28,959 nt of DNA from a virus. The translations under genes and the position numbers were made by a program. Positions within the stretch are counted from its first letter, which is position 1; each line of letters starts with the position of its first letter. The DNA lies in the IMG/VR virus record IMGVR_UViG_3300003691_000036, positions 1-28,959 of that record. One strand, given 5' to 3'. Below, piece after piece: positions 4,976-23,016 of the stretch. The notes below the pieces were generated by a model, which saw only the letters and a list, made by a program, of their open reading frames with translations, did no database searches and was not told where the DNA came from.

Positions 4976-5410
4976 ATGTCAACTATTACTATAAAGAAGC
5001 AATTCACTTCAATTCATAAGTTATTACTTGAGAATAAGGGCAAGAAGTTAACCGATAAGCTAATCAGTTCTTTTGATGAGCTAATGATGTCTAAGGTTAT
5101 GTCAAGCACTTTCAAGAAAGATGATGACGGAGTAGTAACTCATGTATTTTGTTACTACCACAAAGAGTGGGAAGACGTTACAGAAGTAGAGTACGGTAAG
5201 AAAGCAAGTACTTCTACAGGTCTTAACTCAATGTGTAAAGTCGGTGTATCTAACTGGACTAAGCAACAACGAATAATGAAGCAAGCGAAAGCAGAACTAT
5301 TAGAGCAAGTGTCTAGTGGCGAAGTTGATGCGAGCGACTTACTAACGTTGATTGAAGAGATTGAACTTAAAGCTAAAGAAATTGTTAGCTTAGAAGTAGA
5401 AACTAACTAA
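4976..5410 (+). CDS. Early protein, degenerate zinc-ribbon-like (paralogue A)
   Basis: This 144-residue protein of unknown function is a clear paralogue of the product at 6597. Both share an N-terminal helical part and then a conserved core: C-[YF]-YH, W, D, EVE[YF]GKKAS, TGLNSMCK, GVS, WTKQQR and a KQ helix. The core resembles small phage zinc-ribbon proteins of the type 'C-x2-C ... EF ... GLNS-x-CK-x-C', but each CxxC is reduced to CxxH or a single Cys, so metal binding is uncertain. The ATG follows TTGGAGACATAAA. It is the first gene after the complex control region, so it is probably expressed immediately after infection; host takeover or regulation is inferred. Confidence 0.75.
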   Translation: MSTITIKKQFTSIHKLLLENKGKKLTDKLISSFDELMMSKVMSSTFKKDDDGVVTHVFCYYHKEWEDVTEVEYGKKASTSTGLNSMCKVGVSNWTKQQRIMKQAKAELLEQVSSGEVDASDLLTLIEEIELKAKEIVSLEVETN

Positions 5411-6596: not shown

Positions 6597-7073
6597 ATGT
6601 CAACAATCAAAAAAGCATACGTCGCGATTATTTCTCTAATGGAAGCGAACCCAGGAGCATTAGTAGAAGAAATTCTACCTCAAGCTATCGAACTTGCTAG
6701 TGCTAAGACAGGCGGTGGCGGTGGTAAAGCTACAGCTCATCACAAAGATGAGAACGGCGAAGTTACTGCAGTTCATTGCTTCTACCATCAAGTTTGGATG
6801 GACCCGAGAGAAGTTGAGTTCGGTAAGAAAGCATCAAGTGCAACAGGCCTCAATAGCATGTGTAAAGAAGGTGTCTCTAAATGGACTAAGCAACAACGAG
6901 CGTTCAAGCAAGGTAAAGAAGACCTCTTGGAAGCCGTCTCAACAGGTGAGATTGAAGCTGGCGACGTTGCAGAAGCTATCGCTGACCTTGAAGAGACCCG
7001 TAAGATTATCGTCCCGTTAGAAGGCGACTACAAAGGCTTCGAGACTTTGGATGAATGTCTAGCCGCAAGCTAG
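6597..7073 (+). CDS. Early protein, degenerate zinc-ribbon-like (paralogue B)
   Basis: A 158-residue paralogue of the product at 4976. The shared core includes CFYHQVW, EVEFGKKASS, TGLNSMCKEGVSKWTKQQR and FKQGKEDLLEAVSTGE. It differs by a glycine-rich linker (residues 39-43, GGGGG) and a C-terminal extension GFETLDECLAAS. The N-terminal half is helical. Codon use looks closer to highly expressed genes (GGCGGTGGCGGTGGT) than in its neighbours, hinting at strong expression. A clear terminator follows. Unknown function; retention of two copies in one early region suggests division of labour or heteromer formation. Confidence 0.78.
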   Translation: MSTIKKAYVAIISLMEANPGALVEEILPQAIELASAKTGGGGGKATAHHKDENGEVTAVHCFYHQVWMDPREVEFGKKASSATGLNSMCKEGVSKWTKQQRAFKQGKEDLLEAVSTGEIEAGDVAEAIADLEETRKIIVPLEGDYKGFETLDECLAAS

Positions 7074-7095
7074 ACCATGGCAAGAACCATGTGAG

Positions 7096-7123
7096 AGGGA
7101 GCGAGAACTCCCTTTCTTTTTCT
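7096..7123 (+). terminator. Intrinsic terminator after paralogue B
   Basis: AGGGAG (7096-7101) and CTCCCT (7108-7113) form a GC-rich 6-bp stem with a CGAGAA loop, followed by TTCTTTTTCT. It lies 22 bp after the stop codon and separates the early cassette from the replication genes. Confidence 0.75.
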
Positions 7124-7155
7124 CTTCAACCAGTCAATCATAAGGAACTAAATAA

Positions 7156-7842
7156 ATGATAGACAAGATTAAAAGTGTACTGTCGATAGGAGCTATGGAA
7201 GACCGAGTATGTGAGCTATTCAACATCACCCACATAAAGCTCAGAACCTTAGCTAAGCGACACAACTTAGACATAGACTATAACTTCGTCAGTGAGGACA
7301 TGTTACAAGAGATAGACCACACCTGGACTACACGACAGATACAGAACAGGTATTGTCTCTCTTATGCCGTCTCGCAAAGTATTCATGATGGGACGTATAA
7401 GGTGCCGAATCCCACACCGACTATAGATACTATAGAGTTGGAGTCACTACTACAGCAAGGCAAGTCAGTACAAGATATCTCATCGCAGTTTGAGGTTAGT
7501 GTCTATCACATTAGATTAGCTATGAAGAAGTATGGTCTAGTCTCGTATGCTCAACGTAAGAAGCTAACTGCTCCGCAATATGAAGAGATAGCTGAGTTAC
7601 TGATAGCTGGCGACATGCCATCAAAGGATATTGCTATATTATATAACATAAGTCCTAGCATGGTGTCTCACATTAGGTCAGAGACACTATCTGACAAGCC
7701 ACAACGGAAGCCGTACAAGAGGATAGATAAAGAGCTTATCCTAGCACTGCATGAGAAAGGTCACACTCAAGAGTCAATCGCCCACCAGCTAGACGTATCA
7801 CAAAGTAGTGTATCAAGGATTGTAGCATGCAGAAGTTTATAG
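7156..7842 (+). CDS. Multi-helix-turn-helix DNA-binding protein
   Basis: This 228-residue protein appears to be built mainly from repeated HTH units: about residues 17-36, 58-78, 103-127, 155-177 and 203-224. The last three are clearest: SVQDISSQFEVSVYHIRLAM, PSKDIAILYNISPSMVSHIR and TQESIAHQLDVSQSSVSRIV. Each has the sigma4/transposase-like pattern of a helix, a 'V/I-S' turn and a recognition helix. No catalytic domain is visible. The ATG follows ATAAGGAACTAAATAA. The end overlaps the primase-helicase start by 16 bp. A repressor, an origin-binding initiator or a bridging protein are options; linkage to the primase favours replication or its control. Confidence 0.75.
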   Translation: MIDKIKSVLSIGAMEDRVCELFNITHIKLRTLAKRHNLDIDYNFVSEDMLQEIDHTWTTRQIQNRYCLSYAVSQSIHDGTYKVPNPTPTIDTIELESLLQQGKSVQDISSQFEVSVYHIRLAMKKYGLVSYAQRKKLTAPQYEEIAELLIAGDMPSKDIAILYNISPSMVSHIRSETLSDKPQRKPYKRIDKELILALHEKGHTQESIAHQLDVSQSSVSRIVACRSL

Positions 7843-10013
7843 ACCTAGGCTGGCACACAGTGCCACTTAAGGGCGAGCTACGTAGACTAGAGAATGGCGA
7901 CAAGACCATCCCTCAGTTCTCTAAGGGCTGGAGAGTAACGTACAGCGATAAGTTTAACAAGAAAGCTACAGCTATAGGCGGTGTCATAACTGGTGAGAAA
8001 AGTAACATCATAGCTATAGACTGTGACAACAAGAATACGTTCGCTATGTTCAAGGCTATGGACCCGGATTATGAAGCAGTCTTCGTCTCTAAAGGTAAGG
8101 ACGCTGGCACGTTTATTTATAACTATGAGCCAGGTATAGACACCCACAGTCCTACAGATGACCTCTTAGCTTTGGATGTCTACAGTAACAATGGCTTTGT
8201 GTATCTACCTACTGAAGCTAACAAGAGTAAAGTAACGTGGGATGTTATCCACAAGATTAAAGATATGCCTGCTACCACCAGGATTATACTGCATCAACTA
8301 CAGAAGAGGAATGCTGTGGCCGAGTCCAGGTATGAGAATGAGACTCAAACTAAGCCTTGTCTAAATCCACTACTCACTCAGTTCATTGGAAAGAGAGGTG
8401 AGTTTATACCGTCTCTCTTTAAGATTATAACACCTAGAGCGTTTAGAGAGTTAGCTCAGTACCAAGAGTACGGCTATCTACATCCAGACAGTATACCGGA
8501 AGGTAGAGGTAGTGAGTACTTATCACAAGTCTCAGCAATCCTGGGAGCTGATGAGAGTGTAGACCATGAGTTGTACATGGACTGTATGATGGCTATAAAT
8601 GAGTTGTTTGAGACTCCTATGGAAGACGACAGGCTTGATACTACTATATGTAACCCAATGATAGAAGGTAACAGTAGTATAGCTGGTGTGGCCATATGGA
8701 AGTACAATGAGTTCTGGTCTGAGAAGAGACTAACAGTGCTAACAAAGCACGGTCTTATTGTTGACCTTGGATTTGATGATACTCGCAACATGTATTACTT
8801 TATAGATATGACGAATGAAGTGTTGAGGCCTTTCAACAGAGATACAGACTTCATTAGCTATCTTGATGTTACTCTTACTACAGTACTGCCAAAGAAGGCT
8901 GGGCTTAAGAAAAGCATACCTCTTATTCATATTAGAAGTGACCCATCAGAAATGTTTGGATTCTGCCATAGTCCTCAGCCTCAAGTGTTAGCTTTCAATT
9001 CTTTTAAACGTACACGAGAACTAAGTATATTGCATGACCACAAGGACTACGAGAAGTTCTACAATCGTCCAGTGAATACTATTAGATATCTTGAGTGTCT
9101 TGTACCTGATAAGGACAGTAGAGATTTTCTACTAGGATTTATAAAGCGTAAACTAATGTACTTTGAGTATTCTCCTATCATATTATACTTTTTAGGTGTT
9201 CCAGGTTCTGGTAAAGATACCTTCGTGCAGATACTAGAGACTATCATGGCGTATATGGCGAGACCGTCAACTAATGAGTTTCTTGAGAAGTATAACAGCT
9301 GGCTACTTGATACTTACTTTGTACAACTAGATGAGTATGGTGACCAGCTAACCAGGCAGAATGACAAGGACATGGTGAAAGGTCTGCTAAAGGCGTATAC
9401 TGGTAAGCCATCAGTTATGATAAGAGATATGCGACAATCAGCGTACCCTGTCAAGCATGCCCTAACGTTTATAATGACGGCTAATAAGAATCCTTTGATG
9501 CCTGATGAGCAAGATAGACGTATACATCTTATGGAGACACCGAACATGCTTGAATTGCAATCCTGGTTCTCCTCTAGTGTCCATGACGCAATCTTAGCTG
9601 AGATAAAAGACTTTTGTTATTATCTTGCAACAGAGATTCCTATGATGTCTAAGGATGCTTATATGTCACCACCTAAATCTAAAGGTAAGCACAAACTTAT
9701 AGCTGATAGTATGTATGCGGCACAAAAGATAGCTTATGCTCTAGAACATAACATGGTACAATACCTGGTAGACTTAGCTGAGGATAACAACGTACCAGAG
9801 TTCGCTAAGGACATAGTGAATGGCTCATTTAGTAAGGGCTCGTTAGAAATGTTGTATGATGAGATGACAGACTATAAGGGAGATGCGAAGACTGTAGCTA
9901 AGATACTTCGTAAGAAAGGCTTCTCACCTATAGTTAAAACAATTAACAATGCAAGGGAGTATATCTATCACTTGAAAGATAACAACCCTTTCTCGGAGAC
10001 AGAAGATGAATAA
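7827..10013 (+). CDS. PrimPol-type primase / SF3 helicase
   Basis: A 728-residue replicative protein. The N-terminal 130 residues look like an archaeo-eukaryotic primase (bifunctional primase-polymerase): WHTVPLKG, GGVITG (51-56), IAIDCDN with the DxD pair (65-67) and LLALDVYSNNGFVYLP. The C-terminal part is a superfamily 3 (D5-like) helicase: Walker A LGVPGSGKD near 455-463, Walker B YFVQLDEYGD near 500, and sensor FIMTANKNPLMPDEQDRR near 550. It would unwind DNA and lay primers at the fork. The expected His of primase motif II is not obvious in SKGKDAGTFIYNY (88-100). The ATG lies inside the HTH gene, and the stop overlaps the next start. Confidence 0.88.
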   Translation: MQKFIDLGWHTVPLKGELRRLENGDKTIPQFSKGWRVTYSDKFNKKATAIGGVITGEKSNIIAIDCDNKNTFAMFKAMDPDYEAVFVSKGKDAGTFIYNYEPGIDTHSPTDDLLALDVYSNNGFVYLPTEANKSKVTWDVIHKIKDMPATTRIILHQLQKRNAVAESRYENETQTKPCLNPLLTQFIGKRGEFIPSLFKIITPRAFRELAQYQEYGYLHPDSIPEGRGSEYLSQVSAILGADESVDHELYMDCMMAINELFETPMEDDRLDTTICNPMIEGNSSIAGVAIWKYNEFWSEKRLTVLTKHGLIVDLGFDDTRNMYYFIDMTNEVLRPFNRDTDFISYLDVTLTTVLPKKAGLKKSIPLIHIRSDPSEMFGFCHSPQPQVLAFNSFKRTRELSILHDHKDYEKFYNRPVNTIRYLECLVPDKDSRDFLLGFIKRKLMYFEYSPIILYFLGVPGSGKDTFVQILETIMAYMARPSTNEFLEKYNSWLLDTYFVQLDEYGDQLTRQNDKDMVKGLLKAYTGKPSVMIRDMRQSAYPVKHALTFIMTANKNPLMPDEQDRRIHLMETPNMLELQSWFSSSVHDAILAEIKDFCYYLATEIPMMSKDAYMSPPKSKGKHKLIADSMYAAQKIAYALEHNMVQYLVDLAEDNNVPEFAKDIVNGSFSKGSLEMLYDEMTDYKGDAKTVAKILRKKGFSPIVKTINNAREYIYHLKDNNPFSETEDE

Positions 10014-14900: not shown

Positions 14901-15104
14901 ATGATAGGCGTAAAATTTCAAGGGTGGGCAGACAAAGTCTACCACTACAAGACAGCAGGACTACACTTTCATGTAGGTGACCACGCTGTAGTTAAAGCCC
15001 CAAGCGGCGAGCTTAAAGTAGTTACTGTTACTAATGTAGATGTTACTACTGAACAACCTGGTATTGAGTACAAAGAGGTGTTCGGTAAGGTACAACAAGC
15101 ATGA
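14901..15104 (+). CDS. Small beta-barrel-like protein, unknown
   Basis: A 67-residue product, MIGVKFQGWADKVYHYKTAG with FHVGDHAVVKAPSGELKVVT and a terminal YKEVFGKVQQA. The pattern 'VGD-x-VVV ... G-x2-KVV-V' suggests an SH3-like small barrel, frequent in phage proteins of unknown role beside DNA polymerase. ACTGGAGAATAAT provides the ribosome site, and the stop overlaps the polymerase start (ATGA). It may be a processivity or structural accessory, but that is a guess. Confidence 0.6.
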   Translation: MIGVKFQGWADKVYHYKTAGLHFHVGDHAVVKAPSGELKVVTVTNVDVTTEQPGIEYKEVFGKVQQA

Positions 15105-16753
15105 ACACCCCTTATGCGTTAGTACAGCTTGGTGACCTTGTACTGGACAAAGATAAAGACTTGCACTTCGACATTGAGACGTGTGGCCTTTACCAAAAGA
15201 TAAGACTAGCTCAATTTTACCAGGCAGGTGATGATACTGTTCAGATGGTAGAATGGCCGGAACCTCTTCTACTGTGCGTACTACTTAATGACTTTAATAT
15301 GATTGCCCATAATGCACACTATGAAGTAACAACGATTCAACAACAAACAGAGACTCGTTGGATTCCTCCTAAGTTTATGTGTACTCTGTTGTTAAATAGG
15401 TTACAAGATTACGCTGCTGAGAAGTTTGACTTAGCATCAGTAATGGCTAGAGCATGCGGATTCGACCCGTATGAGAAGCAAGGGTTAGATAAGAAGAAGT
15501 TGCAGAAGTCTAACTGGGATGTTGTTAGGTTAACTACTGACCAGTTATTGTATGCTGCGACTGATGTTTATTATCTACCTAATGTACTTGAAGCTTGCAT
15601 TAGTCAGAAAGACACTACTAGCTATAAGTTAGACATGTTGAATCTTAACTACTGTCTAGACTTTCAATGGAATGGAATGCCAATTGACCACGATAGAATT
15701 GCTATTCACTTAGCTGAGAACAACGCTAGAATCGCTGAGATTGCCTTACCTATCAATTGTAATAGCTGGCAACAAGTTAGACCTTACATAGATTCTGAGG
15801 AGTCAGATGCGTTAGGCTTAGGTAAGCTAACTCTGCAAGGTAATGACAGAGCTAAGGATGTTAATGAGACTAGAAAACTCATAAAGCAAAACAGCTTCTT
15901 AAAGAAGTATGATAGCATGGTGGAGCTTGTAGGTAAGTTCATACCAACTGCAAGGTCTGGTCGCTATGTGTCTAAAGATGATAACAAGCAACAAATACCT
16001 CGTAAGTTAAAAGACTGCTTCGGTGGTGAACTTTTAGTTTACGCTGATTATGCTCAACTTGAACTAAGAACTATAGCTTGCATAACTGATTGTAAGTTGA
16101 TGGTGAAAATGTTCAAAGAAGGTGTTGATATTCATAACTTTACTACTGAGATGATATTCGGTAAAGAGTGGACTAAGACTCAGCGTCAGCTAACTAAGAC
16201 AGCAAACTTCAACTTCTTATACGGTGGAGGTGTTAATGTCTTCATTAGTATTCTTATACTGCAAGCTCAGATGTGGCTAGAAGAACGTGAAGCATACTCA
16301 CTTCGTAAGAGATGGAGAAACCTGTGGGTAGAAATTTATGCTTGGCAACAACGTGGTATAAATGCTTGGAAGAAAGGAAAGCCTTGGACTACACCTCTTG
16401 GCCGCAGATATGTCGGCAAGATGATGACTGACCAGCTTAACATTCAAAACCAGGGAGCAGGTGCTGAGGTAGCAAAGCTTGCGTTGCATTATATGATACC
16501 TAAACTAAAAGAGTTAGGTGGCAACAGCTTAGTTAACTTTATTCATGATAGCTTTATAGTTAAAGTTGATGACCATGACGTAGAGAAAGCTAAGCAAGTA
16601 GCTCAAATCATTGCTGATTCAATGCAACAAGCTTGGACAGAGATGTCTAAGTTATTTTTAATCAAAGACCTTCCTATGCCTGTCAATGTAAGAATTGGTG
16701 AGAATTGGGGAGACATTGAAAACGACGACTTTATATGGGAGTTAAACCAATAA
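15101..16753 (+). CDS. Family A DNA polymerase with 3'-5' exonuclease
   Basis: A 550-residue replicative polymerase, shorter than T7 DNA polymerase (704). The exonuclease shows Exo I FDIETCGL (Asp24, Glu26), Exo II HNAHYE (70-75) and Exo III YAATD (151-155). The polymerase shows motif A DYAQLELR (316-323), motif B RQLTKTANFNFLYG (362-375, with Arg362, Lys366, Phe370 and Tyr374) and motif C IHDS (481-484). Two departures are visible: Exo II has Glu75 where Asp is usual, and motif C has Ser484 where Glu is usual. The thumb region between the domains is compact. The 4-bp overlap with the preceding gene and the 1-bp overlap with the next place it in a replication and nucleotide operon. Confidence 0.93.
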   Translation: MNTPYALVQLGDLVLDKDKDLHFDIETCGLYQKIRLAQFYQAGDDTVQMVEWPEPLLLCVLLNDFNMIAHNAHYEVTTIQQQTETRWIPPKFMCTLLLNRLQDYAAEKFDLASVMARACGFDPYEKQGLDKKKLQKSNWDVVRLTTDQLLYAATDVYYLPNVLEACISQKDTTSYKLDMLNLNYCLDFQWNGMPIDHDRIAIHLAENNARIAEIALPINCNSWQQVRPYIDSEESDALGLGKLTLQGNDRAKDVNETRKLIKQNSFLKKYDSMVELVGKFIPTARSGRYVSKDDNKQQIPRKLKDCFGGELLVYADYAQLELRTIACITDCKLMVKMFKEGVDIHNFTTEMIFGKEWTKTQRQLTKTANFNFLYGGGVNVFISILILQAQMWLEEREAYSLRKRWRNLWVEIYAWQQRGINAWKKGKPWTTPLGRRYVGKMMTDQLNIQNQGAGAEVAKLALHYMIPKLKELGGNSLVNFIHDSFIVKVDDHDVEKAKQVAQIIADSMQQAWTEMSKLFLIKDLPMPVNVRIGENWGDIENDDFIWELNQ

Positions 16754-17541
16754 TGCAACAGTATGAACAAGACTACGGGCGTCTAATAGACCGTATATTA
16801 AACAATGGCGTAGTAAAGAAGACCAGAAATGGCAACACTATCTCAGTGTTTGGTGAGTCTATTAAAGTTGACTTATCTCAAGGGTACTTTCCTTTGATAC
16901 AAGGTAGAGAGATGAAGCCTAAAGGTATACTAGGTGAATTCGCTGCTATGATAAGAGGCCCTAAGTGCTTAGAGGACTTTGAGAAGTGGGGTTGTAACTA
17001 CTGGAAGTTATGGGCAGACAAAGACGGTAAGCTTGAAGTAGACTACGGTAACGCTTGGTGGGCTGACGGTCAGATGGACAGGCTTATTGATAAGCTAAAG
17101 AATGACCCTAACGACCGACGAATGATAATCACTGGTTGGAAGCCTGAGAGATTAGACAAGCTAAGTCTACCGTGTTGTCACTATGCATATCAATTCCATG
17201 TTGCTAATGGTAAACTTAATATGGTATGGATTCAGCGGTCTGTTGACATGATGATAGGATTACCTTCTGACTTTGTACTTGCCGCAATCTGGGTGATAAC
17301 TTTAGCTAATCAAGTTGGTCTTGAACCTGGCGAGATAACAATGCAACTAGGTGACTGTCATGTTTATGAAGAACACTTAGTGTCAGCAAAAGAGTACGTA
17401 AGAAATGTAGGCTTTATCATGCAGCCAGTGTCTTATATGCTTAATGCCGATAAAGGCGTACCTATGAAGTCAATGACACCTAAGTGGTTTGACTTTGACT
17501 ACAATTCACTAGCACCAATGAAATTTTTACTTAAGGAGTAA
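16753..17541 (+). CDS. Thymidylate synthase homologue, possible dCMP (hydroxy)methylase
   Basis: This 262-residue product has the ThyA fold signature: LPCCHYAYQF with catalytic Cys142 and His143, QRSVDMMIGL (Arg162, Ser163, Asp165) and GDCHVYEEH (His203, Tyr205). In thymidylate synthases the segment after the RS-x-D motif reads G-x-P-x-N, whose Asn contacts the uracil base (Asn177 E. coli, Asn229 L. casei). Here it is GLPSD, with Asp173. T4 dCMP hydroxymethylase has Asp179 at this point (GFRND), and N229D in L. casei shifts substrate use to dCMP. I therefore infer methylation or hydroxymethylation of dCMP. I chose the ATG at 16753 (TAATG overlap, GGGAG upstream) over the one at 16735. Confidence 0.82.
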   Translation: MQQYEQDYGRLIDRILNNGVVKKTRNGNTISVFGESIKVDLSQGYFPLIQGREMKPKGILGEFAAMIRGPKCLEDFEKWGCNYWKLWADKDGKLEVDYGNAWWADGQMDRLIDKLKNDPNDRRMIITGWKPERLDKLSLPCCHYAYQFHVANGKLNMVWIQRSVDMMIGLPSDFVLAAIWVITLANQVGLEPGEITMQLGDCHVYEEHLVSAKEYVRNVGFIMQPVSYMLNADKGVPMKSMTPKWFDFDYNSLAPMKFLLKE

Positions 17542-17544
17542 AAT

Positions 17545-18123
17545 ATGCAACAACTATTTGAAAGAGTGTCCGGCTGGAATGCCGCACGGTATGAAAGAGA
17601 GTACAATCACAAGTTAGCGGTTAAATTGCTTAGAGAAGAATATACTGAGTGGCTAAACAAAACAGACTTAACTAATGAAGTTAAAGAGTTAAGTGATATT
17701 ACCTTTGTTGCGTTAGGCGTATTGTGGAAGCTGGGAGTGACAGATGAGGAGAACCAAGTCTGGGCAGACCACAGTGGCAAGTATGTTCAACATATAATCA
17801 ATATAGCTGACTTGGCACCAGGTTATTACATGGCAACTATATTAGACATGATGGAGTGTGACCACATCTCACCATTGAATGCTTGTCATGTCATAGCTTA
17901 CTTGTGTCAGGCTCAACTATTGCACCTTGGTATAGGTCCTGATTTAGGTATGGATTGCTTTAACGCTATTTGTGACTCTAATGACACTAAACCTGTTGTA
18001 AAGACTGCATCAGATGTGAAAGCTAACAAAGACAAAGGTGATGGTTATAGACCAGCTGAACCTGATTTGTTATTAATCTTAAACAAAGCGGGGTTAACAG
18101 AATGTCTGTCACTAGTACGCTAA
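17545..18123 (+). CDS. MazG-like all-alpha NTP pyrophosphohydrolase
   Basis: A 192-residue product. EEYTE (31-35) and E48-LSD51 give the EExxE...ExxD metal site of all-alpha NTP pyrophosphohydrolases (MazG/dUTPase superfamily). The C-terminal part AICDSNDTKPVV ... KDKGDGYRPAEPDL is the SN-x-[ST]K ... KG-x-x-Y-x-P segment common in phage members related to phosphoribosyl-ATP pyrophosphohydrolase. The reaction is NTP to NMP plus pyrophosphate; the substrate is unknown. Between a ThyA homologue that may use dCMP and a dCMP deaminase, dCTP or dUTP is the natural candidate. AAGGAGTAAAAT precedes the ATG. Confidence 0.75.
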   Translation: MQQLFERVSGWNAARYEREYNHKLAVKLLREEYTEWLNKTDLTNEVKELSDITFVALGVLWKLGVTDEENQVWADHSGKYVQHIINIADLAPGYYMATILDMMECDHISPLNACHVIAYLCQAQLLHLGIGPDLGMDCFNAICDSNDTKPVVKTASDVKANKDKGDGYRPAEPDLLLILNKAGLTECLSLVR

Positions 18124-18359
18124 AATCAAGAGGTAAACGCTACGGCAAATTTGAAGACCATGCCGTTATAAGCCAGGACTTGCAAGATGTGATGCGAAAT
18201 GCTGATAAGTTTAGCAAGCTGGCACCTATTCAAAAAGAAGCGCTGATTATGATTCAGCATAAAGTAGCTCGCATACTTAATGGTGACCCTGACTATGGCG
18301 ATAACTGGCATGACATCCAGGGCTATGCGAAGCTAGTTGAAGATTGGATAGAGTCGTGA
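18102..18359 (+). CDS. DUF6378-like phage protein
   Basis: An 85-residue product with the pattern LKSRGKRYGKFEDHAVISQD, then QKEALIMIQHKVARILNGDP and DNWHDIQGYAKLVEDW. I recognise this as the widespread phage family DUF6378 ('RG-x2-YG-x-F-x-DHA', 'K-x-AR-x-L-x-GDP-x-Y-x-D-x-W-x-DI-x-GYA'). The conserved Asp/Glu and helical layout recall the second half of MazG-like proteins, and the gene lies directly after one, so a nucleotide-pool role is plausible. It overlaps the previous gene by 22 bp. Confidence 0.75.
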   Translation: MSVTSTLKSRGKRYGKFEDHAVISQDLQDVMRNADKFSKLAPIQKEALIMIQHKVARILNGDPDYGDNWHDIQGYAKLVEDWIES

Positions 18360-18964
18360 ATAAGTGGCACAAGCGGTTCATTATCTTAGCTCATGAAGTT
18401 GCTAGTTATAGTAAAGACCCTAGAGTCCAGGTAGGCTGTATCATCGCCTATCCTGGCAGGCGTCAATTCTCTATGGGCTACAACGGCTTCCCTGCTGGCA
18501 TTGCAGACAGTGAACTTAGATTAACCATGACAGCTCATAAGAATGATTTGATGGTGCACGCTGAGCTAAATGCTGTTCTAAATGCTAGAGCAGACTTGAC
18601 TGGAAGTACTATGTACGTCACGAAGCCACCATGTGTTGACTGTTGCAAAGTTATGATACAAGCTGGAATTAGCGAGTTGCGCTGTCCTAAGATTGACGAG
18701 ACTAGTTCCTGGGCAACTTCACAAGAATTTGGTCTAGCTTTATTGTTTGAATCAGGCATCAAAACAGTCCATTTTGGAGATATTTTGACTCAGGAATGCG
18801 ATAAGCTAGGTCAAAATAATAAGGCGACCACAGACCATTCTGAAGGCCAAAAAAGATGGTGCGACTGTAACCCTATACGGCATCGTGGCATAGATTATGA
18901 CCATATAACACTAACTGAAGTTTGTTTAAACTGTAAGTTAGAAAGGAAAACTAATGACTATTAA
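18356..18964 (+). CDS. Deoxycytidylate (dCMP) deaminase with C-terminal Cys extension
   Basis: This is a zinc-dependent deaminase converting dCMP to dUMP. Visible motifs are KDPRVQVGCIIA, GYNGFPAGI, the HAE catalytic site in VHAELNAVLN and the PCxxC zinc site in PPCVDCCKVM. I prefer the GTG at 18356 (overlapping the previous stop, giving the usual 'NKWHKRF' beginning) over an in-frame ATG at 18344. After the deaminase fold ends near FGDIL there are about 60 extra residues with CDCN, a His and CLNC, which look like a zinc knuckle absent from typical family members. The final bases overlap the nuclease gene by 11 bp. Confidence 0.87.
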   Translation: MNKWHKRFIILAHEVASYSKDPRVQVGCIIAYPGRRQFSMGYNGFPAGIADSELRLTMTAHKNDLMVHAELNAVLNARADLTGSTMYVTKPPCVDCCKVMIQAGISELRCPKIDETSSWATSQEFGLALLFESGIKTVHFGDILTQECDKLGQNNKATTDHSEGQKRWCDCNPIRHRGIDYDHITLTEVCLNCKLERKTNDY

Positions 18965-21227: not shown

Positions 21228-21385
21228 TGGGATTCGTATTAGTTGCAGTTATGTCAGCAAAGCACAGAGCTAAATTAGAAAAGCAAAGCAGACTTGCAGA
21301 GAACAAAAAACGTGACCTTTGGTCTGCTAAGCAGGCTGATGAAAACAATAATCAGTTATATCCACATGAGAGGAGTACCAAATGA
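21227..21385 (+). CDS. Small basic protein, unknown
   Basis: A 52-residue product, MGFVLVAVMSAKHRAKLEKQ onward: a brief hydrophobic start followed by a long charged helix. ACAGGAGGCAATATA is a strong ribosome site, and the gene overlaps both neighbours (TAATG and ATGA). The start may be a short membrane anchor or simply the hydrophobic face of a helix. No family recognised. Confidence 0.58.
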   Translation: MGFVLVAVMSAKHRAKLEKQSRLAENKKRDLWSAKQADENNNQLYPHERSTK

Positions 21386-22215
21386 AAGCAATGTTAGCGT
21401 GTAGTACAATACCAAGTATAGGTGAGATTAAGTACCCTGTACTGGCATCACCAAAGCTTGACGGCATTAGATGTGTAGCTATAGATGGTGTAGCTTACAG
21501 TAGGACGATGAAGAAGATACCTAATGCGTATATACAAAGGATGTTCAAAGAGCTGAATTTAGACGGTCTAGACGGCGAACTAATGCTAGATGGTGGGTTT
21601 GAATCTGTGGCGTCTATGGTTATGAGTGTGACGCACGAAAGAAGTCATGCGTTCTACTATAACGTGTTTGATTGCCACAACGCTGTCATGGCGCCTTTTA
21701 CAGCCAGAGTAGCCGAGGCACGTGAACGTGTGACACGCTATTGCAACCCACATGTTAGGCTGTTACCCCAGCTAATAATGCAAGACTCTATACAGATGAC
21801 TATATATCTTGCCGCTTGTTTAGACCAAGGTTTTGAAGGAGCTATTGTTAGAGACCCAAAGGGACCGTACAAGCAAGGTCGTAGCACAATGAACCAAGGT
21901 TGGATGTTGAAGCTTAAGATATTTAAAGAGACTGAGGCCACCATTATGGGCTTTGAGGAGCTTTTACGGAATGAAGACACTTCTACTAATAAAAACGAGA
22001 ATATGGTCCCTGCGGACACTTTAGGAGCTCTAGTAATGGCTCAGGGTGACATGACATTCAAGATAGGCTCAGGATTCAACACTCAGCAACGTGACGAGAT
22101 ATGGCAGAATAAAGCTCACTACATTGGTAAAAGAGTTACTTACAAATATCAAGAGTTAACTAAGTACGGTAAGCCTCGGTTTCCAACTTTCAAAGGAGTA
22201 AGGTTAGATGAGTAG
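21382..22215 (+). CDS. ATP-dependent DNA ligase
   Basis: A 277-residue nucleotidyltransferase. Motif I, PKLDGIRC, has the adenylated Lys25. GLDGELML is motif III-like, FYYNVFDC is motif IIIa, FEGAIVRDP is motif IV, and WMLKLKIF is motif V. A short OB-fold region follows (GSGFNTQQRDEIW, GKRVTYKYQELTKYGKPRFP). It is smaller than T7 ligase (359) and about the size of minimal ligases. It seals nicks at Okazaki fragments and during recombination. AGAGGAGTACCAA precedes the ATG. Confidence 0.9.
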   Translation: MKAMLACSTIPSIGEIKYPVLASPKLDGIRCVAIDGVAYSRTMKKIPNAYIQRMFKELNLDGLDGELMLDGGFESVASMVMSVTHERSHAFYYNVFDCHNAVMAPFTARVAEARERVTRYCNPHVRLLPQLIMQDSIQMTIYLAACLDQGFEGAIVRDPKGPYKQGRSTMNQGWMLKLKIFKETEATIMGFEELLRNEDTSTNKNENMVPADTLGALVMAQGDMTFKIGSGFNTQQRDEIWQNKAHYIGKRVTYKYQELTKYGKPRFPTFKGVRLDE

Positions 22216-22369: not shown

Positions 22370-22592
22370 CTACTGGGCAATCAAGACTATAGAGTGTAAC
22401 AGAGCTGGTGTGATGGACATTATAGCTTGTGCACCAAGTGGTAGGTTTGTAGGTATTGAAGTAAAATACGGTTCTGGTAAAGCAAGTAAGTTGCAAAGCT
22501 GGAATATTTTAGAGGTAGCCAAGCGAGGAGGAATAGCCTTCGTAGCATGGTCCTTAGACGAAGTAAAGGAGAAACTAAAAGATGAAACTTGA
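22317..22592 (+). CDS. VRR-NUC nuclease (Holliday junction resolvase-like)
   Basis: A 91-residue standalone VRR-NUC domain: SEQKVQAAILNWL (Glu3 region), NRAGVMDIIACA (Asp34), GIEVKYGSG with the E-x-K pair (Glu48, Lys50), and Gln60 downstream. Standalone VRR-NUCs cut branched DNA such as Holliday junctions. This fits a phage that must resolve recombination intermediates before packaging. No strong ribosome site is seen, so coupling to the upstream frame is likely. It overlaps the following gene by 11 bp. Confidence 0.88.
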   Translation: MSEQKVQAAILNWLKINNYWAIKTIECNRAGVMDIIACAPSGRFVGIEVKYGSGKASKLQSWNILEVAKRGGIAFVAWSLDEVKEKLKDET

Positions 22593-23016
22593 ACTAAGAA
22601 GATATTTTGCAGACAGCAAGCATACTAAAGGCTTGCTAATCCACAACGGCAAAGTGCTGTGTCACACTATAGAAGACCCTTGGCACGCTACCAAGATTCC
22701 TGGTGAGACTAGAATACCTGAAGGCACGTATAAGTTAGGACTGAGAACAGTAGGCAGCTTTCATCAGCGTTACAGCGAGAAGTACCCTGTTAATCATAAA
22801 GGTATGATAGAGGTACTAGGCGTACCAAACTACATGTACATCCTAATCCACATAGGTAACTACCCTAGAGATACTGAAGGCTGTATTCTGGTAGGTGAGT
22901 CTGCTAATAGTGGAGCAAGCATAAGTATGTCTACAAGAGCTTATGAGCGTGTATACAATGACATTGCGTTCAACATAGAGAAAGGTAGTGTTACTCTTGA
23001 GGTTATCTATGTTTAG
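22582..23016 (+). CDS. DUF5675-like protein, possible lysis enzyme
   Basis: A 144-residue product. LHRKL-type start MKLELRRYFAD, then GLLIHNGKVLCHTIEDP, IPEGTYKL and IHIGNYPRDTEGCILVGESA (89-108) match the DUF5675 family. The arrangement of His90, Asn93 and Cys101 in the H-x-G-N ... D-T-x-G-C-I motif resembles L,D-transpeptidase-like (YkuD) active sites, so a peptidoglycan-acting role is plausible but unproven. No signal peptide is visible. It is followed by a small membrane protein, consistent with a lysis pair. AAAGGAGAAAC lies upstream of the start. Confidence 0.68.
   Translation: MKLELRRYFADSKHTKGLLIHNGKVLCHTIEDPWHATKIPGETRIPEGTYKLGLRTVGSFHQRYSEKYPVNHKGMIEVLGVPNYMYILIHIGNYPRDTEGCILVGESANSGASISMSTRAYERVYNDIAFNIEKGSVTLEVIYV

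Follow-up and report, generated by a model that had tools for sequence, protein, structure and literature searches.

Candidate pathway for precursor-level replacement of cytosine by 5-methylcytosine in KF-1-type podoviruses

Which nucleotide is the substrate of a phage thymidylate synthase (TS) homologue that has aspartate at the position reading the base, and what would the phage do with the product? The question is raised by virus record IMGVR_UViG_3300003691_000036, a stretch of 28,959 bases analysed at its full length (hereafter the window), in which a gene for a TS-family enzyme (16753..17541, plus strand; PF00303, E 3.7e-55) is followed, on the same strand and in closely coupled open reading frames, by genes for a MazG-like pyrophosphohydrolase, a DUF6378 protein and a deoxycytidine monophosphate (dCMP) deaminase. 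From residues, gene order, conservation and co-variation, which are seen in the sequences themselves, we infer the substrate and product of the TS homologue, the activity of MazG on deoxycytidine triphosphate (dCTP) and the modified state of the DNA; the predicted use of dCMP by the TS homologue and the predicted dCTPase role of MazG are well supported, and replacement of cytosine by 5-methylcytosine (5mC) at the precursor level is, on balance, the probable outcome.

In the proposed pathway MazG would hydrolyse dCTP to dCMP, thus keeping unmodified cytosine out of the DNA, and the TS homologue would use methylene-tetrahydrofolate to convert dCMP to 5-methyl-dCMP, with Asp177 (Escherichia coli TS, or EcTS, numbering) holding N3 and the 4-amino group of the cytosine. 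A host or phage kinase would then raise 5-methyl-dCMP to 5-methyl-dCTP, to be incorporated by the phage family A polymerase, while the deaminase would divert part of the dCMP to deoxyuridine monophosphate (dUMP) for deoxythymidine triphosphate (dTTP) synthesis. The modified cytosine would probably serve to hide the phage DNA from bacterial restriction enzymes. That the phage removes dCTP and modifies dCMP had been proposed in a sequence-only reading of the locus, and the proposal gains support from Asp177, from the linkage of MazG and deaminase to the TS gene and from the natural Asn177 revertants described below.

The base-reading residue and the clade that shares it

The enzyme, a predicted dCMP 5-methylase, has 262 amino acids when read from the ATG at 16753, a second in-frame ATG being present at 16735. 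It belongs to the PF00303 superfamily by its catalytic Cys (in the motif CCH), Arg166, Asp169, His207/Tyr209 and TS fold, and carries the motifs VDYG (Asp at EcTS position 93) and GLPSD (Asp at 177). Alignment with EcTS and T4 gp42 places the Asp of GLPSD on EcTS Asn177 and T4 gp42 Asp179, i.e., on the base-reading position, as the sequence-only reading had held; the window enzyme lacks the Asn of dUMP-specific TS and has the Asp of dCMP-specific homologues, its activity on dCMP being predicted. As cited in PMC8670742, Liu & Santi (1992) found that the same Asn → Asp change switches Lactobacillus casei TS to dCMP.

The first comparison set comprised 22 IMG/VR loci and 8 phages, the window among these; a wider scan yielded 192 related stretches, of which 80 were fetched, and 81 distinct clade members were compared. 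Asp177 is present in 79 of the 81, against Asn177 in all 77 readable TS of control phage contigs carrying the Asn-type enzyme, frequencies because of which the Asp is not to be ascribed to chance or error. Where the motifs are readable, the clade shares a further signature consisting of Asp93, Cys145 and a Leu three positions ahead of the catalytic Cys (Leu143; counted in all 81 members), the Asn-type controls having Val, Ile or Met at 93 and almost always Pro at 145.

In the phylogenetic tree, where each group has support of 100/98 or better, the clade separates from the enzymes of the T4 gp42 and Xp12 types and lies closer to ordinary TS. Therefore the predicted use of dCMP probably arose separately in this clade, apparently as a third origin of dCMP-specific TS, although long branches leave the deep order unsure. 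The echo of T4 genes 42, 56 and cd noticed in the sequence-only reading thus holds for the functions but not for shared descent, the lineage being independent and much closer to the ordinary enzymes. Members outside phages are rare, with five matches among 84,980 genomes of bacteria and archaea, all of them on 26–44 kb contigs of metagenome-assembled genomes. In one member, L015, the Asp-type TS forms the C-terminal half of a 567-amino acid frame (7104-8807) whose first half appears, by eye, to be 5′-3′ exonuclease-like.

The pyrophosphohydrolase, the deaminase and the kinase slot

The MazG-like gene (17545..18123, plus strand) starts 3 bases 3′ of the TS stop. Its product gives a clear PHROG match (phrog_671, E 1.1e-11) and a weak Pfam match under the cut-off (PF01503, E 0.0024) and, by this profile match together with its intact EExxE...D metal-binding motif, is a MazG/all-alpha nucleoside triphosphate pyrophosphohydrolase; alignment against solved structures found no relative. 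The DUF6378 gene (18102..18359, plus strand; PF19905, E 1.3e-7), to which no role is assigned, overlaps the MazG gene, and the dCMP deaminase gene (18356..18964, plus strand; PF00383, E 1e-18; phrog_174, E 7.4e-41), whose product would convert dCMP to dUMP, likely starts at GTG 18356, in a GTGA overlap with the DUF6378 stop, rather than at TTG 18344. The deaminase zinc motifs HAE and PCxxC are intact and conserved. Both of the latter genes had been recognised beside the TS gene by the sequence-only reading, with which these profile matches agree.

The linkage was counted in the first set, with 25 Asp-type records and 44 Asn-type control records, one of which (L118) has no readable motif. The PF00383 deaminase is present in 21/25 Asp-type and 1/44 Asn-type records (Fisher p 9e-13) and the phrog_671 MazG in 22/25 and 5/44 (Fisher p 2e-10), p values that overstate the case because the records are related and not phylogenetically independent. 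EExxE and the Asp are retained in each of the 67 MazG homologues that neighbour an Asp-type TS. The complete genomes of VPMS1 and Kolga have the Asp-type TS and MazG and lack the deaminase, and no deaminase match was found in clade records L143, L150 and L159 either. A BLAST-based count of linked deaminase neighbours (60/81) was dropped for the PF00383 counts, the BLAST figure being inflated by fusion of the deaminase to the N-terminal domain of a dATP/dGTP diphosphohydrolase (dGTP_diPhyd_N, PF18909). This fusion is found in Edwardsiella phage KF-1 (L004, 17611-18219), Pseudoalteromonas phage PH1 (L002, 21351-22100) and Dickeya phage Amaethon (L006, 19048-19647). The PF18909 family is also met in 2-aminoadenine phages.

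The only 2 of the 81 clade members with Asn177, L184 and L188, group together as sisters inside the Asp clade (Shimodaira–Hasegawa-like approximate likelihood ratio test, SH-aLRT, 84 in a quick tree), a position that fits a single Asp → Asn reversion, and both keep the Asp93/Cys145 scaffold. In L184 (46.8 kb) no deaminase match and no phrog_671 MazG match were found, and a dihydrofolate reductase (DHFR)-like gene (6819-7232) lies directly 3′ of the TS gene. In L188 (21 kb), where no deaminase match was found either, the MazG homologue (7548-8009) has DTxxK in place of EExxE, all three glutamates being changed in a protein whose remainder shows good conservation, at 48% identity with an intact homologue, and a true DHFR (E 3.4e-39) is encoded 3.4 kb downstream. 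Because MazG is lost or lacks its catalytic glutamates where Asp177 became Asn, the simplest reading is that MazG would be a dCTPase feeding the Asp-type enzyme, dispensable once that enzyme uses dUMP. The possible dCTPase role given to this neighbour in the sequence-only reading is thereby strengthened, its catalytic motif being intact, linked to the Asp-type TS and tracking Asp177.

As concerns the kinase that the pathway would require, profile searches found no deoxynucleoside monophosphate (dNMP) kinase in the window, in keeping with the sequence-only reading, and no carbamoyltransferase, phrog_139 giving only a 13-bit match inside the primase gene; likewise, PF02223 and PF16861 searches of the 25 clade records found no kinase and no carbamoyltransferase. 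On the other hand, a T4 gp1-like dNMP kinase (phrog_139) is encoded in clade members L017 (E 1.6e-31), L126, L129, L150, L166 and L177, and in three of these (L126, 7368-7853; L129, 7373-7903; L177, 7365-7862) it occupies the slot held by DUF6378 in the window, between MazG and deaminase; the L126 TS is 69% identical to that of the window. Since the two genes replace each other in one slot, DUF6378 may have a related role. No recognised dNMP kinase was found either in AXL1 and PaMx28, relatives of the 5mC phage Xp12. The first part of the family phrog_38514 is matched by the pyrophosphohydrolase of AXL1 and the last part by the clade kinases, so that this family is apparently a fusion of MazG and kinase.

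The product and the rival explanations

Of the two products allowed by the sequence-only reading, we favour 5-methyl-dCMP over 5-hydroxymethyl-dCMP, the predicted enzyme lacking the T4 hydroxymethylation signature. In the T4 ternary structure, the marks of hydroxymethylation are Ser94, Asp145, which precedes the catalytic Cys by three residues, and the absence of a C-terminal tail, those of TS activity being Leu143, Trp83 and the presence of that tail (PMC6400193). In our panel the residue at the Asp145 position is Asp in T4, CC31, Aes012, SPO1 gp29 and Nebulous and Glu in PEi20. The window enzyme, like its clade, has Leu there and keeps Trp83 and the tail, the window model aligning to EcTS through residue 264. 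Where T4-type enzymes have Ser or Thr at the site of T4 Ser94, two residues ahead of the catalytic Tyr, the window enzyme has Val, with Asp at −1. Indeed, the AlphaFold model (predicted local distance difference test score, pLDDT, 93) has E. coli TS as its nearest structural match (Z 33.4; root-mean-square deviation 1.4 over 254 residues), the match running up to the last residue of the model; the 50 structure matches listed do not include T4 dCMP hydroxymethylase, a match beyond those being possible.

Methylation, unlike hydroxymethylation, turns the cofactor into dihydrofolate and needs DHFR. In L017 the gene directly 3′ of the Asp-type TS encodes a true DHFR, and genes of a short divergent DHFR-like family, to which the L184 gene also belongs, occupy this place in L015 (8809-9222), L019 (1868-2212), L023 (8803-9216), L030 (8819-9232) and L178 (4849-5205). 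Because the Asn177 members share the Asp93/Cys145 scaffold and carry a DHFR or DHFR-like gene, this scaffold most likely methylates.

Several observations weigh against 5-methyl-dCMP as the product, or against the pathway as a whole. The window has neither a DHFR nor a recognised kinase, the DHFR-like family scores weakly (Pfam E 0.0033 and 0.0086; best PDB E 0.012), and L184 and L188 probably represent one event and not two. His147 is kept here, T4, SPO1 and the Xp12 relatives having another residue at this position, which in the MetaGPA study set modified contigs apart from unmodified ones (PMC8670742). Furthermore, the clade-wide Asp93 neighbours position 143, the site in T4 of the water-activating Ser94/Asp145 pair, and could replace T4 Asp145 as water activator. 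With this residue and with Asp177, as in T4 gp42, the enzyme might run the same pathway as a dCMP hydroxymethylase, water attacking the methylene intermediate and the DNA containing 5-hydroxymethylcytosine as in T4 without glucosylation; the annotation of a protein of ctXG1253 as "pyrimidine hmase", made by similarity only, points the same way. We regard this version as possible but rather unlikely, in view of Leu143, Trp83 and the TS tail, of the finding that T4 D145N is dead for 5-hydroxymethyl-dCMP formation (PMC6400193) and of the Asn177 revertants, which retain Asp93 together with the DHFR or DHFR-like gene that only methylation needs. Nor do the 25 clade records hold a carbamoyltransferase, and no obvious transferase is seen among the most frequent clade neighbours, which are annotated only in part.

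The cluster might, alternatively, serve only to supply deoxythymidine monophosphate (dTMP), the enzyme being a plain TS in which the Asn → Asp change is neutral or compensated. Its fold and all its other catalytic residues are indeed TS-like, and the deaminase would supply dUMP, but the switch to dCMP cited above for L. casei TS, the retention of Asp in 79/81 members over a large divergence and the tracking of Asp by the MazG catalytic residues make this very improbable. No more credible is a route to dTMP that avoids dUMP and leaves no modified base in the DNA, with MazG converting dCTP to dCMP, the Asp-type TS forming 5-methyl-dCMP and the deaminase turning it into dTMP. In its favour are the linkage of the deaminase to the Asp-type TS, the ability of dCMP deaminases to accept 5-methyl-dCMP and the lack of a recognised kinase in the window; yet VPMS1, Kolga and the three clade records named above show no deaminase, the dNMP kinases of clade members imply phosphorylation of a modified dNMP, and AXL1 combines the same gene set with restriction-resistant DNA. 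That the Asp-type TS and the deaminase form a new thymidylate pathway where both are present, perhaps beside DNA modification, is hardly less doubtful. As a sign of restriction-site avoidance, palindrome counts were uninformative, the observed/expected ratio being 0.85–1.03 in all phages tested, modified ones included and with no unmodified control.

Related systems and significance

In phage Xp12 all cytosine is replaced by 5mC through a dCMP methyltransferase pathway. In our comparisons Xp12 was represented by its relatives AXL1, whose DNA resists cleavage at most C/G-containing restriction sites, and PaMx28, both of which carry an Asp177 TS, a pyrophosphohydrolase, a deaminase and a DHFR. 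Like the window, the Xp12 relatives (AXL1, DLP4, PaMx28) have the Asp177 TS, a MazG-type pyrophosphohydrolase, a dCMP deaminase and no recognised dNMP kinase, and their predicted product is likewise 5-methyl-dCMP; unlike the window, they have Pro147, Ala93, Phe83, a loop one residue shorter and a linked DHFR, and the window clade is separate from their TS lineage (each group 100/99). T4, with gene 42, the gene 56 dCTPase, the gene 1 kinase and the cd deaminase, shares with the window the base-reading Asp and the logic of destroying dCTP, modifying dCMP and deaminating part of the dCMP. The window enzyme, however, lacks the Asp145, Ser94 and Val85 of gp42 and has the TS C-terminal tail, its MazG belongs to phrog_671 and gp56 to phrog_173, and the window has no gp1 kinase; no glucosyltransferase was seen, sugar transferases not having been searched for systematically.

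Shewanella phage Thanatos is of T4 size. It encodes a dCTP pyrophosphatase, a dCMP deaminase and a dCMP hydroxymethylase, a trio of functions from which cytosine modification was predicted and later confirmed by mass spectrometry (PMC12838424); it differs in adding a sugar, and the comparison made here is one of gene functions. The MetaGPA study linked Asp-type TS, PRA-PH and dCMP deaminase domains to cytosine-modified contigs, with a cluster of PF00303 (Asp177), PF01503, PF00383 and PF14437 (PMC8670742). The window has the same Pfam set, the same Asn → Asp change and the ligase domains PF14743 and PF01068, but keeps His147, and no carbamoyltransferase was found in it.

The gene order of the window is that of complete KF-1-type podoviruses, i.e., the Edwardsiella Kafunavirus KF-1, PH1, Vibrio phage VPMS1 and Amaethon, which have the same replication module, Asp-type TS and MazG, the enzyme being annotated as thymidylate synthase and the deaminase being fused in KF-1, PH1 and Amaethon and absent in VPMS1; in the literature on KF-1-like phages we found no restriction or nucleoside data and no report of modified DNA. 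Already published (PMC8670742) are the Asn → Asp switch, its link to contigs with modified cytosine and its joint occurrence with PRA-PH and dCMP deaminase, but no earlier report was found of the pathway in KF-1-type podoviruses, of the Asp93/Cys145/Asp177 signature, of the Asn177 revertants or of the kinase/DUF6378 exchange. If the proposed pathway is correct, a large group of small, widely distributed podoviruses, comprising 192 related IMG/VR contigs, cultured isolates on Vibrio, Edwardsiella, Dickeya and Pseudoalteromonas and a Pelagibacter phage, would have fully modified cytosine, and would thereby evade C-containing restriction sites but face 5mC-dependent (type IV) restriction. A clade with natural revertants to dUMP specificity would, moreover, be a good system for studying how the active site chooses between cytosine and uracil and between methyl and hydroxymethyl transfer.

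As to the remainder of the window, the family A DNA polymerase gene (15101..16753, plus strand; PF00476, E 1.6e-33) lies directly 5′ of the TS gene, an order kept in most relatives, and its stop and the TS ATG share TAATG at 16751, the two genes being translationally coupled. The same replication module contains an ATP-dependent DNA ligase gene (21382..22215, plus strand) with domains PF14743 and PF01068, each of which the MetaGPA study associated with modified contigs (PMC8670742). The early region holds two paralogous genes of phrog_10459 (unknown function) close together, at 4976-5410 and 6597-7073, and near the lysis region a DUF5675 protein (22582-23016; PF18925, E 1.4e-29) may have an endolysin-type function.

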